Source: Deltaproteobacteria bacterium (lineage in GTDB: Bacteria > Desulfobacterota > Deferrimicrobia > Deferrimicrobiales > Deferrimicrobiaceae). From it: a stretch of 64,000 nt of DNA. Numbering within the stretch: position 1 is the stretch's first letter; each line of letters begins with the position of its first letter. Below, piece after piece: positions 52,916 through 60,399 of the stretch. The notes beneath the pieces were generated by a model. It did not search any database, was not told the origin of the DNA, and saw only the letters and a list, made by a program, of their open reading frames with translations. The stretch covers positions 124,001 through 188,000 of the forward strand of contig JAKAHC010000005.1 of NCBI GenBank assembly GCA_021815305.1, read 5' to 3'. Made by a program: the position numbers and the translations under genes.

Positions 52916-53596
52916 TCAGGGGCCTTCGGGGATCACGGTTTCTTCCAGACGGGACAATTCCGAATGGATCGCCTCGCGGAGGGGAGCCTTGCGGAGCAAG
53001 GCCAGGACGCTGTCTTCGCGGAGCAGCCGGATCAGCCGGGACAGCGCCTGGAGATGCTCCTGCGGGGTCTTCATGAGGAGCAGGAACAGCACCGAGACCT
53101 TCTCCTTGTCCACGGAACCGAAGTCCACCGGTTCCTCCAGAAAGTGGAGCGATACCAGGGACGGCGCATCCATCTGGGGCATCGGAAACGGGACTCTCGG
53201 ATGGGGCACGGCCACGCCGTTCCCGATTCCGGTCGAACAGGTGGATTCCCGCTCCCAGATCGCCCGGAACAGGGTGGAACGGAAACGCGCCGGAATGCAG
53301 GTGGTGGCGTCCACGGCCTCCCGCAACACCTTGCGGGGGGTATCCCCGGCGATCCGGTAATGGATTCCTCCGGCTTCGATCAGGTCCCGGATCGTGACAG
53401 GACGAGGCGGAGCGGGTGGCGGGTTTCCCTCAAGGGGAGCGGACACGCCCGATGGGAGCAGGCCGGCCAGATTTTCGATCGGAAACCGCCACTGGCCCCC
53501 GACGCGGATCCCTTTCAGGTTCCCGCGCCAAAGCATCCGGCGAATCGTCTTTTCCGAAACCCGCAATTCCCGGGCAACTTCTTGTATGGACAACAT
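52916..53596 (-). CDS. Helix-turn-helix / PTS EIIA fusion regulator
   Basis: The 226-residue protein has an excisionase/MerR-like DNA-binding domain at residues 1-45 (SIQEVARELRVSEKTIRRML, GGQWRFP) and a fructose/Ntr-type PTS EIIA domain at about 65-220. The phospho-acceptor His132 is present in GNGVAVPHPRV, so the protein could be phosphorylated by HPr or NPr. No permease EIIB/EIIC genes are present. It lies 51 bases ahead of the Ehr operon on the same strand, which suggests it controls or tunes that complex in response to carbon or energy status; this is inference. The ATG has no ribosome site and appears leaderless. Confidence 0.85.
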   Translation of the reverse strand: MLSIQEVARELRVSEKTIRRMLWRGNLKGIRVGGQWRFPIENLAGLLPSGVSAPLEGNPPPAPPRPVTIRDLIEAGGIHYRIAGDTPRKVLREAVDATTCIPARFRSTLFRAIWERESTCSTGIGNGVAVPHPRVPFPMPQMDAPSLVSLHFLEEPVDFGSVDKEKVSVLFLLLMKTPQEHLQALSRLIRLLREDSVLALLRKAPLREAIHSELSRLEETVIPEGP

Positions 53597-53776: not shown

Positions 53777-54769
53777 TTACGCTACCCTGTCTCCGCCCTT
53801 TCCTTCGTTTGCGTCTTGCCCAACGAGACGGGCTTCGTCGCTCAACACGGCCGCGGGTTCCTGCGCGGCGGGGAAGAGGAGGGACATCGCCACCGATCCC
53901 AGCAGGACCGTCGCCACCACGCCCAGCGAAATCCCGATGGGGATATGGACGAACTCGGAGATCAGCATCTTGACCCCGATGAACATCAGGACGGCGCACA
54001 AACCCACCTGCAGGTACCGGAACAGCCCCATGATCCCCGCCAGCAGGAAAAACAGGGCCCGCAACCCCAGGATGGCGAAAATGTTGGAGGTGTACACGAT
54101 GAAGGGGTCCCGAGTGATCGCGAGGATCGCGGGGATCGAGTCCACGGCGAACATGATGTCGGTCGTCATGATCACGATCATGACCGGCACCAGCGCCGTC
54201 GCCATCAGTTTCCCCTCCCGGCGCACCACGAAGTACTGGGAGTGATAGGAGTCGTCGATCGGACAGACGCGCCGGAAGAACCGGAGCACAGGGTTCTTCT
54301 GCGGCTCGACGTGCACCTCGCCCGCGCGCACCAGCTTGATCGCCACGTAGATCAGGAAGGCCCCGAAGACGTAGATCAGCCAGGCGAAGTACGACAGCAA
54401 GGTCACCGCGGTGGCGATGAAGACGCCCCGCAGGACGATCGCCCCCAGGATCCCCAGGAAGAGCACCCGCTGCTGGTACGCCGCAGGAACGGCGAAGTAC
54501 TGGAAGATCATGAGGAACACGAAGAGGTTGTCCACGCTCAGGGACCACTCGACGATGTACCCGGTGACGAACTCCATGCCCTTGGCCGACCCGTCGATGG
54601 CGAAGACGGCCGCGCCGAACAGCGCGGCCAGGGAAACCCAGATGAGCGTCCAGATGGAGGCCTCGCGAAGGGACAGCGCGTGCGGCTTCTTCATGAACCG
54701 AAGAATGTCCACGGCGAGCGCCCCGACGATCAGTCCCCCGAAAAACCCCCACAACGCCAAGACTTTCAT
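53777..54769 (-). CDS. TerC-family integral membrane protein, copy 1
   Basis: The 330-residue protein has about nine spans and the TerC motifs: WSLSVDNLFVFLMIF with Asp80 and TTDIMFAVDSIPAILAITRD with Asp204 and Asp210. TerC/Alx proteins are linked to manganese or other metal homeostasis and to tellurite resistance. ATG 54769 follows AAAGGAG. It lies 56 bases after copy 2 and probably shares its transcript. From the ribosome site to near the C-terminus the DNA is almost identical to copy 3; only the last 25 residues differ (VLSDEARLVGQD...). Confidence 0.9.
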   Translation of the reverse strand: MKVLALWGFFGGLIVGALAVDILRFMKKPHALSLREASIWTLIWVSLAALFGAAVFAIDGSAKGMEFVTGYIVEWSLSVDNLFVFLMIFQYFAVPAAYQQRVLFLGILGAIVLRGVFIATAVTLLSYFAWLIYVFGAFLIYVAIKLVRAGEVHVEPQKNPVLRFFRRVCPIDDSYHSQYFVVRREGKLMATALVPVMIVIMTTDIMFAVDSIPAILAITRDPFIVYTSNIFAILGLRALFFLLAGIMGLFRYLQVGLCAVLMFIGVKMLISEFVHIPIGISLGVVATVLLGSVAMSLLFPAAQEPAAVLSDEARLVGQDANEGKGGDRVA

Positions 54770-54781
54770 GACCACTCCTTT
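53849..54781 (-). repeat. Near-identical 933-base block, copy A
   Basis: This stretch matches 56277-57209 in the same orientation (offset 2428). Along the lines compared by eye I found one difference, A at 54760 against G at 57188, but I did not check every base. It covers most of terC copy 1 with its ribosome site. Flanks beyond both ends diverge, so this is a real duplication or gene conversion tract, not a simple assembly repeat. Confidence 0.85.
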
Positions 54782-54825: not shown

Positions 54826-55803
54826 TCAAGCCACCCGATCTCCGCGCCTCCCTTCCTTCCCGTCGGACTCCCCGCGCCGCGCGGACAGGGCCGCCGGATC
54901 CCGGGCCGGCGGAAAGAGAAGGGAGAGCACGACCGAAAACACCAGGATGGTGGACACCACCACCAGCGGAACCATGATGGGGATATCCACGAACCCGGAG
55001 ACCAGCATCTTGACTCCGACGAACACGAGGACGACGCAGAGCCCTGCCTGCAGGAACCGGAACATCCCCATGATCCCTTCGAGCAGGAAGAACAGGGCGC
55101 GCAATCCGAGGATGGCGAAGATCACGGAGGTGTAAACGATGAAGGGATCCCTGCTGATGACGAAGATCGCGGGGATCGAGTCCACCGCGAAGATGACGTT
55201 GGCGGTCGTTATCGCGAGGATGACCGGCAGGAGAGCGGTCCCCGCCAGGCGCCCCTCCCGGCGCACAAAGAAGTTGTCCCCGTCGTAGGAATTTTCGATC
55301 GGAACGATCCGGGTGAAGAAACGGAGATCCCTTTTTTTCCCGACATCCATTTTCTCCTGACGGAAAAGCATGATCCCGACCCAGACCAGGAATGCTTCGA
55401 AGGCATAGACCAGCCACTGGAAAACCGACATCCACATCACGGCGTCGGTGATGAAAAGGCACCGCAGGACCACCGCGCCCAGGATCCCCAGGAAGAACAC
55501 CCGCTGCCGGCTTTCGGGAGGGACGGCAAAATACTGGAAGATCATGAGGAACACGAAGAGGTTCCCCATGCTCAAGGACCACTCGATGACGTACCCGGCG
55601 GCAAACTCCAGCCCCTTCGAGGTACCGTATACGACAAAGACCGCAAAGCCGAACAACGCGGCCAGAAGTCCCCAGATGAGGGTCCAGACGGAGGCTTCGC
55701 GCAGGGAAAGCGCCTGCGGATTCACCATGAACCTCAGGATGTCCACGAGGAGTGTCCCGACGATCAGACCACCGAAGAACCCCCATACCAGCATGGCATT
55801 CAT
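54826..55803 (-). CDS. TerC-family membrane protein, copy 2 (acidic residues lost)
   Basis: The 325-residue protein has the same layout as its neighbours (about 60 percent identical by eye) but two key positions differ: WSLSMGNLFVFLMIF has Gly80 where copies 1 and 3 have Asp, and TANVIFAVDSIPAIF has Asn202 in place of Asp204. The later Asp of AVDSIPA remains. ATG 55803 follows AAAGGGGAG; a start seven codons upstream is less likely. The gene has its own promoter and a leader of about 290 bases. Metal transport may be altered or lost; a regulatory or partner role is possible. Confidence 0.88.
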   Translation of the reverse strand: MNAMLVWGFFGGLIVGTLLVDILRFMVNPQALSLREASVWTLIWGLLAALFGFAVFVVYGTSKGLEFAAGYVIEWSLSMGNLFVFLMIFQYFAVPPESRQRVFFLGILGAVVLRCLFITDAVMWMSVFQWLVYAFEAFLVWVGIMLFRQEKMDVGKKRDLRFFTRIVPIENSYDGDNFFVRREGRLAGTALLPVILAITTANVIFAVDSIPAIFVISRDPFIVYTSVIFAILGLRALFFLLEGIMGMFRFLQAGLCVVLVFVGVKMLVSGFVDIPIMVPLVVVSTILVFSVVLSLLFPPARDPAALSARRGESDGKEGRRGDRVA

Positions 55804-55884: not shown

Positions 55885-56052
55885 CTAGGGGGGAGGCGCC
55901 CCCGTTCGGGCGATTGCGGCCGCCGTTCTCCCCTCCCGCGCCTTCCCGGGCGGGCCGGCATGCGAGCGGGCGGAAAGAAGGACGTGATTCCCCGGACACC
56001 GCCGCAACGAAGGGAGGGGATGGGAAGCCGTTCCTTGGGAGAGAACATCCAT
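55885..56052 (-). CDS. Possible upstream leader ORF of terC copy 2
   Basis: A 55-codon frame starts at ATG 56052 behind a good AAGGAGAG site and ends at TAG 55887-55885, 81 bases before the terC start. It begins MDVLSQGTASHPLPSLRR; the matching frame before terC copy 3 begins MEILSLRNDLSPLPSLRR. The remainder is low complexity. It may be a regulatory leader peptide, or the ATG may only be part of a structured RNA. No known protein is recognised. Confidence 0.4.
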   Translation of the reverse strand: MDVLSQGTASHPLPSLRRCPGNHVLLSARSHAGPPGKAREGRTAAAIARTGAPPP

Positions 56053-56067
56053 GCCACTCTCCTTGCC
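56000..56067 (-). promoter_or_regulatory. Conserved leader element of terC copy 2
   Basis: This 68-base block aligns with 57271-57338 in the terC copy 3 leader. Shared pieces on the minus strand include GGAGAGTGG-N-ATGGA, TTCTCTC, AAGGAACG and TCGTTGCGGCGG. GAGAG and CTCTC can pair around the leader ATG. Between AAGGAACG and the next shared piece there are offsetting one-base shifts, so conservation is not only at codon level. I could not match it to the yybP-ykoY manganese riboswitch. Confidence 0.55.
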
Positions 56068-56096
56068 TGAATGGCATATAGAAATATTCTTATTCG

Positions 56097-56125
56097 ACTA
56101 TATTAGCGACCCGCACCGCAGTCAA
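56097..56125 (-). promoter_or_regulatory. Promoter of terC copy 2
   Basis: Minus strand TTGACT (56125-56120), 17-base spacer, TATAGT (56102-56097). Transcription should begin near 56090, about 290 bases before the terC start, leaving a long leader. The interval 55804-56213 therefore holds this promoter, the conserved element and the short upstream frame; nothing else is seen. Confidence 0.75.
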
Positions 56126-56213
56126 GCGACAAATCGGCGCGCCCGCTCCGGCTCCATCCGCCGCGACAGATCCCGCGGTATGCCCGTTCGTTTCCCTTCC
56201 GTGACGAACCGGG

Positions 56214-57197
56214 TCACGACACCCGGTTTCCGCTTTTCTCCTCCTTTGGGGGTACTTCCCCGGGCTGACGGGACGGGGCCGCGGGTTCCTGCGCGGCGGG
56301 GAAGAGGAGGGACATCGCCACCGATCCCAGCAGGACCGTCGCCACCACGCCCAGCGAAATCCCGATGGGGATATGGACGAACTCGGAGATCAGCATCTTG
56401 ACCCCGATGAACATCAGGACGGCGCACAAACCCACCTGCAGGTACCGGAACAGCCCCATGATCCCCGCCAGCAGGAAAAACAGGGCCCGCAACCCCAGGA
56501 TGGCGAAAATGTTGGAGGTGTACACGATGAAGGGGTCCCGAGTGATCGCGAGGATCGCGGGGATCGAGTCCACGGCGAACATGATGTCGGTCGTCATGAT
56601 CACGATCATGACCGGCACCAGCGCCGTCGCCATCAGTTTCCCCTCCCGGCGCACCACGAAGTACTGGGAGTGATAGGAGTCGTCGATCGGACAGACGCGC
56701 CGGAAGAACCGGAGCACAGGGTTCTTCTGCGGCTCGACGTGCACCTCGCCCGCGCGCACCAGCTTGATCGCCACGTAGATCAGGAAGGCCCCGAAGACGT
56801 AGATCAGCCAGGCGAAGTACGACAGCAAGGTCACCGCGGTGGCGATGAAGACGCCCCGCAGGACGATCGCCCCCAGGATCCCCAGGAAGAGCACCCGCTG
56901 CTGGTACGCCGCAGGAACGGCGAAGTACTGGAAGATCATGAGGAACACGAAGAGGTTGTCCACGCTCAGGGACCACTCGACGATGTACCCGGTGACGAAC
57001 TCCATGCCCTTGGCCGACCCGTCGATGGCGAAGACGGCCGCGCCGAACAGCGCGGCCAGGGAAACCCAGATGAGCGTCCAGATGGAGGCCTCGCGAAGGG
57101 ACAGCGCGTGCGGCTTCTTCATGAACCGAAGAATGTCCACGGCGAGCGCCCCGACGATCAGTCCCCCGAAAAACCCCCACAACGCCAGGACTTTCAT
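56214..57197 (-). CDS. TerC-family integral membrane protein, copy 3
   Basis: The 327-residue protein is the same as copy 1 over its whole membrane region (motifs SVDNLFVF and TTDIMFAVDSIPA intact) and differs only in the last 22 residues (PSRQPGEVPPKEEK...). ATG 57197 follows AAAGGAG. An in-frame ATG at 57323 with a strong AGGAGAG site would add 42 residues; I prefer 57197 because that start and ribosome site are shared with copy 1, but a longer form cannot be excluded. It has its own promoter at 57374-57402. Confidence 0.9.
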   Translation of the reverse strand: MKVLALWGFFGGLIVGALAVDILRFMKKPHALSLREASIWTLIWVSLAALFGAAVFAIDGSAKGMEFVTGYIVEWSLSVDNLFVFLMIFQYFAVPAAYQQRVLFLGILGAIVLRGVFIATAVTLLSYFAWLIYVFGAFLIYVAIKLVRAGEVHVEPQKNPVLRFFRRVCPIDDSYHSQYFVVRREGKLMATALVPVMIVIMTTDIMFAVDSIPAILAITRDPFIVYTSNIFAILGLRALFFLLAGIMGLFRYLQVGLCAVLMFIGVKMLISEFVHIPIGISLGVVATVLLGSVAMSLLFPAAQEPAAPSRQPGEVPPKEEKSGNRVS

Positions 57198-57209
57198 GAC
57201 CACTCCTTT
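56277..57209 (-). repeat. Near-identical 933-base block, copy B
   Basis: Partner of the block at 53849-54781. It begins in the C-terminal coding region of terC copy 3 and ends a few bases before its ribosome site. The two copies flank the divergent terC copy 2, an arrangement that allows homologous recombination and loss of the middle gene. Confidence 0.85.
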
Positions 57210-57270
57210 TCCCTGATAAGGAGAGAACCGTACGATCCGGAGGGAAGATAGACCATGTTTCTCCGAATGC

Positions 57271-57338
57271 CGCCGCAACGATGGGAGGGGGGAAAGATCG
57301 TTCCTTAGAGAGAGAATTTCCATTCCACTCTCCTGGCC
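57271..57338 (-). promoter_or_regulatory. Conserved leader element of terC copy 3
   Basis: Counterpart of 56000-56067. It includes a strong ribosome site and ATG 57323 whose frame runs into terC without a stop. In the copy 2 leader the same start leads to a separate short frame. The element lies about 75-140 bases upstream of the preferred terC start. Confidence 0.55.
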
Positions 57339-57373
57339 GATACGGTCGGTGGAACAGCGAATCCTCTATTCGG

Positions 57374-57402
57374 AATATACTCCCGCACGGCGGATAACGC
57401 AA
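57374..57402 (-). promoter_or_regulatory. Promoter of terC copy 3
   Basis: Minus strand TTGCGT (57402-57397), 17-base spacer, TATATT (57379-57374). The start of transcription would be near 57367, giving a leader of about 170 bases. The stretch 57403-57621 between this promoter and the methyltransferase stop holds no gene I can support. Confidence 0.65.
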
Positions 57403-59689: not shown

Positions 59690-60301
59690 CTACGCCTTGG
59701 CCTGCGCGAAGTTGACCGCGACCTGCGCCCAATCGACGGTGTTCCACCACGCCTCGATGTAGTCGGCGCGCCGGTTCTGGTATCTCAGGTAGTAGGCGTG
59801 CTCCCAGACGTCGAGGCCGAAGAACGCCTTGCCGCCGTCCATGACGGGATTGTCCTGGTTCGCGGTCGATTCGACGGCCAGTTTTCCGCCACGGATCAGC
59901 AACCACGCCCAGCCGGATCCGAATCGCGACGTCGCGGCCTGGGTGAACGTTTTCTTGAACTCCCCGAAGTTGCCGAACGCACCGTCGATGGCACGGGCGA
60001 GATCCCCCGACGGCTCACCGCCGCCGCCTTTTTTCATGATCTTCCAGAACATGGAATGATTCAGATGGCCGCCGCCGTTGTTGCGCACGGCGGCGCGAAC
60101 CGCTTCCGGCACCTGGCCGATCCGCGCGAGCAGTTCCTCGACCTGAAGCTTTTGAAGCTCAGGATGGCCTTCGAGTGCCTTGTTGAGGTTGGTGACATAG
60201 GCCCCGTGGTGCTTGTCGTGGTGAATCTCCATCGTCTTCGCGTCGATGTAGGGCTCGAGCGCGTCGAAAGGGTACGGGAGCGGCGGCAAATTATGCGTCA
60301 T
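59690..60301 (-). CDS. sod: Superoxide dismutase (Fe/Mn family)
   Basis: The 203-residue enzyme has the four metal ligands: His in [12 protein letters not shown], His in [10 protein letters not shown], Asp and His in [20 protein letters not shown] and FGSGWAWL are typical. It converts superoxide to oxygen and hydrogen peroxide in the cytoplasm. ATG 60301 follows AAAGGAGATCCG; the frame extends upstream but that part belongs to a gene remnant. Gly/Gln residues that separate Fe from Mn types are not enough to decide the metal here. Confidence 0.96.
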
Positions 60302-60399
60302 CGGACGGATCTCCTTTCCGGCCGGCTCTTGACCGGCGTCATCTTCCTGTTTCGATGCAGCGGGAACACGGCATCGTTTCCCTTTGACGGAGAAACGGC

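Follow-up and report, generated by a model that had tools for sequence, protein, structure and literature searches.

Manganese is handled by TerC/Alx proteins, the textbook targets of one class of riboswitch, and the locus described here raises the question of whether a conserved leader located before two of its three terC genes is a control element and, if so, whether it is that riboswitch or something else. A different leader doing the job of the manganese riboswitch would, if true, mean that the same control problem has been solved independently, and would provide a direct experimental handle on what the TerC proteins of this uncultured lineage respond to. The window (the whole 64,000-nucleotide stretch of DNA that was analysed) contains the three genes in the minus-strand order copy 3, copy 2, copy 1 (Table 1). 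All three products match the PF03741 family, and copies 2 and 3 exceed the curated cut-off of TIGR03718, the Alx-type model. Directly 3′ of the terC genes and on the same strand is a gene for an HTH_17 domain fused to PTS EIIA-2 (52916–53596), followed by one for an NADH dehydrogenase subunit 5-like protein; an Fe/Mn superoxide dismutase gene (59690–60331) is situated a few genes away from the cluster.

Table 1. Features of the terC locus and its leaders (coordinates of the window).
Feature	Coordinates	Strand	Evidence and remarks
terC copy 1	53777..54769	-	without leader element
terC copy 2	54826..55803	-	TIGR03718, Alx type
Short ORF, leader 2	55885..56052	-	55 codons; ribosome site AGGAGAG; anti-SD duplex -8.9 kcal/mol
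Conserved leader element, copy 2	55977..56087	-	profile match E 2e-27 and alignment
Pyrimidine-rich tract, leader 2 (codons 3-16, invariant CCTCCC)	56005..56046	-	can pair with terC ribosome site
Predicted promoter, copy 2 (TTGACT-17-TATAGT)	56097..56125	-	consensus scan 10/12; predicted RNA start near 56090
terC copy 3	56214..57197	-	TIGR03718, Alx type
Short ORF, leader 3	57198..57323	-	42 codons, stop-less, in phase into terC; anti-SD duplex -7.8 kcal/mol
Conserved leader element, copy 3	57249..57362	-	profile match E 4e-27 and alignment
Pyrimidine-rich tract, leader 3	57276..57317	-	counterpart of leader 2 tract
Promoter-like site, copy 3 (TTGCGT-17-TATATT)	57374..57402	-	by eye, at the homologous position; RNA start predicted near 57367

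Copies 2 and 3 have leaders that share a conserved block of ~111–114 nt as delimited by profile matches. The two leaders align with a score of 124, compared with a maximum of 55 among 1000 shuffled pairs, so that the sharing proposed in an earlier sequence-only reading stands, while the 68 bases given there as the length of the block fall short of the span of the profile. A core pattern, GAGTGRMATGRNNNTTCTCTC, is present at 56039–56059 and 57310–57330 and nowhere else in the window even with three mismatches allowed (0.28 sites expected). A scan of viral contigs for the element gave no match.

Similar TerC proteins are encoded by 24 of the 99 genomes drawn as relatives. The closest are those of G013 (72% identical) and G020 (67–68%), representing two other genera, and lack of conservation among relatives, which the sequence-only reading had named as an argument against the element, does not apply since both of their leaders carry the block. 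It is missing from the leaders of the remaining TerC relatives in this 99-genome sample and from all of 80 further terC loci from the genome collection. Of 395 genomes of the phylum searched with a sequence-only model, just G000 (with two) and G013 show strong matches; G020 is outside the genomes listed in that search and was matched by pattern and profile instead. Weak profile matches elsewhere, among them those in G068 and G218, were rejected as chance by alignment and, for G068, also by its open reading frames. Two-mismatch pattern matches within the family were set aside too, as gene starts (MTVLS..., MDVFS...) and chance. Altogether three genera hold four copies, each immediately 5′ of a gene of one terC clade. 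A tree of 39 TerC proteins places the four bearers in a single fully supported clade, to which the TerC of G023 also belongs although it is without the element, a pattern that a single gain and a single loss could account for.

Chance-corrected identity is 0.52–0.67 for the block and 0.70–0.75 for the core, which was delimited after the alignment was viewed, compared with 0.30–0.53 at terC four-fold sites; the whole-block comparison is less dependent on that choice. Selection on the block beyond common descent is likely because its identity is above that of the four-fold sites in all six pairs. An ordinary promoter-proximal leader with no regulatory role, alike through common descent and recent transfer, would fit the unsaturated state of the terC genes of this clade (four-fold identity 0.57–0.71) and the resemblance of leader 2 to the G020 leader, which reaches beyond the limits of the block; the same six comparisons stand against it, however, and we regard it as quite unlikely. 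Judged from these sequence comparisons the element is real, conserved and clade-specific.

The first candidate for such an element is the yybP-ykoY manganese riboswitch (RF00080), which like the element occupies the 5′ UTR of terC/alx genes. Scans of the four leaders against Rfam (release 15) returned no match to yybP-ykoY or any other family. Rfam alone was rejected as proof of riboswitch absence, for it is silent, even at E values up to 10, on a textbook example of yybP-ykoY in locus L052 (2846–2932), which has a terminator-like hairpin after it; a dedicated model (R2) was therefore built, trained on 11 terC leaders carrying the manganese riboswitch signature. Model R2 recovers the held-out L076, L078, L086 and L104 at E ≤2e-5, and finds no match in the four leaders and none in the genome from which the window derives. 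The loops that characterize the riboswitch, GGGGAGUAG on the 5′ side and CAAGACC on the 3′ side, are likewise absent from the leaders, the best matches having two mismatches; the nearest GGGGAGUAG-like match is the ribosome site of a short ORF described below. The riboswitch signature is present in 13 of the terC loci fetched. Within the same family, model R2 identifies the manganese riboswitch in G021 and G007 (L144 and L145), where it precedes a different TerC-like gene (a YjbE-like TerC-family member, named by eye) and is missed by RF00080. The RF00080 scan that the sequence-only reading had proposed as a check thus gave no hit, and its failure to recognise the manganese riboswitch is upheld by Rfam and model R2 alike. 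By these sequence criteria the leader element is distinct from the yybP-ykoY riboswitch.

Predicted promoters upstream place the block within the 5′ UTR. Promoter-like sites with 10 or 11 of 12 consensus matches are found 5′ of copy 2 and of the G013 and G020 genes; the site at the homologous place of copy 3 is below the threshold of the consensus scan. The distance from the predicted RNA start to the short ORF is 38–45 nt in three copies and ~103 nt in G020. The short frame has the form M-x-[VIF]-L-S-x7-L-P-[SP]-[LI]-R-R and is open in all four copies with a constant LS–LP spacing of seven codons, and its ribosome site is strong in three, that of G020 being weak (-4.8 kcal/mol). At the 3′ end the frame of leader 2 closes 82 nt before terC and that of leader 3 continues in phase into the gene, as described in the sequence-only reading; in G013 it stops at the terC ribosome site and in G020 it overlaps the terC start. 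The open frame is only suggestive because such frames are not rare in GC-rich DNA.

These features would suit a leader-peptide attenuator in which the MxxLS...LPSLRR peptide stalls the ribosome upon a signal, as the constant spacing, the open frames and the three strong ribosome sites recommend. The substitutions are not codon-like, however (40, 35 and 38 at codon positions 1, 2 and 3), the C-terminus is not conserved, and a column-permutation test in frame on the four sequences detects no coding signature (p 0.2–0.5). The coding test thus does not bear out the earlier suggestion of a leader peptide, and such an attenuator is distinctly improbable. Codons 3–16 contain 14–18 C residues compared with 4–9 G, along with 11–16 YC dimers, and this C-rich, G-poor tract could be a Rho-loading site that is exposed when the short ORF is untranslated, a possibility with which the lack of detectable intrinsic terminators in the window leaders agrees. 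Comparable tracts are nonetheless common in GC-rich leaders, and Rho-dependent attenuation is very unlikely.

A covariance comparison among related terC leaders, also put forward in the sequence-only reading, lends almost no support to a consensus fold, as the covariation term is near zero (-0.06) and at most 3 of 25 pairs have two-sided changes. Apart from G020, neither the block nor the whole leaders have unusual fold z-scores. Leaders 2, 3 and G013 are each able to form a similar long 5′ hairpin in which the start of the short ORF is buried, and together with conservation at the nucleotide rather than the codon level this could indicate a new riboswitch for metal or pH, with the signal bound by the RNA and the frame incidental. 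The target would be the usual one for manganese-sensing RNAs, as in the 13 fetched loci, in E. coli, where manganese and alkaline pH act jointly on the alx and mntP leaders (PMC9603457), and in V. parahaemolyticus, where terC is a manganese exporter behind the known riboswitch (PMC13274385). Against such a riboswitch are the absence of a conserved junction-type structure, the near-zero covariation term and the ordinary z-scores, and it is unlikely.

When the leaders are folded from the predicted RNA start, occlusion of the start of the short ORF by the 5′ end is stronger than in dinucleotide shuffles (combined p for the four copies 0.006 with a short segment and 0.03 with a longer one). The GAGAG/CTCTC arms noted in the sequence-only reading are present in the sequence, but other pairings are thermodynamically preferred in two of the four copies; the hairpin that they form competes with the long 5′ hairpin and is the dominant form for G020 and for leader 3 taken in full. 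Also from the predicted RNA start, CCTCCC pairs with the terC ribosome site better than do 88–98% of the other windows within each leader, a ranking that partly reflects base composition. In whole-leader folds this pairing prevails in leader 2 and in G020, the latter folded from an arbitrary 5′ end, whereas in the minimum-energy folds of leader 3 and G013 other partners mask that site. In silico, opening the terC site of G020 costs 20.7 kcal/mol with the element and 8.4 kcal/mol after its deletion (with the same arbitrary 5′ end); the deletion leaves the site closed in leader 3 and G013. These folding models suggest, through statistics that are weak, both that the short ORF start is occluded and that anti-Shine-Dalgarno pairing takes place.

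The leader probably acts as a local on/off control of its terC gene. The reading we favour, at about an even chance, is a cis-regulatory RNA that gates terC translation by means of a short ORF with an occluded start together with an anti-Shine-Dalgarno tract. Transcription from the promoter just upstream would yield an RNA with its 5′ end ~40–100 nt ahead of the short ORF, and in this RNA the ribosome site and start of the ORF would be folded away. Just within the short ORF, the tract CTCTC ... CCTCCC is complementary to Shine-Dalgarno sequences, and by default it and the adjoining leader sequence would hide the terC ribosome site. Were the short ORF opened and translated, the ribosome would clear the tract and pass expression on to terC; in three of the four copies the ORF ends at, overlaps or enters terC. 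We infer translation of the short ORF, its coupling to terC and the action of any signal, whether manganese, pH or other stress; these readings of mechanism and signal are drawn from four sequences.

In translational attenuators of the erm and cat types a short upstream ORF carries a separate ribosome site, and the leader can mask the ribosome site of the gene that follows. The element shares the first of these features and may share the second, which its predicted folds show most clearly in leaders 2 and G020; it has no significant peptide coding signature, and its masking partner varies between copies. A 2017 comparative survey reportedly describes a candidate terC RNA motif, likewise located before terC genes, in other Pseudomonadota, and the element would be set apart from that motif by host group. 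Searches of the open-licence literature on terC/alx, directed at leader peptides, upstream ORFs and attenuation of translation, found no description of such a leader. The fullest reading, that this leader RNA is unreported and unrelated to yybP-ykoY, responds to metal or pH stress by way of a short ORF that is occluded, and regulates a TerC transporter of the Alx type, in a family that also uses the manganese riboswitch before a different TerC-like gene, is a tentative one that we hold to be somewhat short of probable.

The G023 locus differs from those of the other members of the bearer clade. In place of the element it has a promoter region (L131 3172–3407) with three TACATGTA palindromes (0.01 expected), which adjoin a divergent gene encoding a ChrB-like protein (by eye) and perhaps represent a transcription-factor operator that replaced the leader. 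A universal stress protein-like gene (by eye) is located 3′ of terC in G023 (L131 1304–2215) and G013 (L129 4845–5774), but does not follow terC in the window.

Separate from the leader, terC copies 1 and 3 are identical at 932 of 933 bases over the gene core (53849–54781 and 56277–57209). The identity has sharp edges, one just 5′ of the start codon and the other ahead of the C-terminal tail, and the flanks diverge; the near-identity is probably the result of recent gene conversion or copying.
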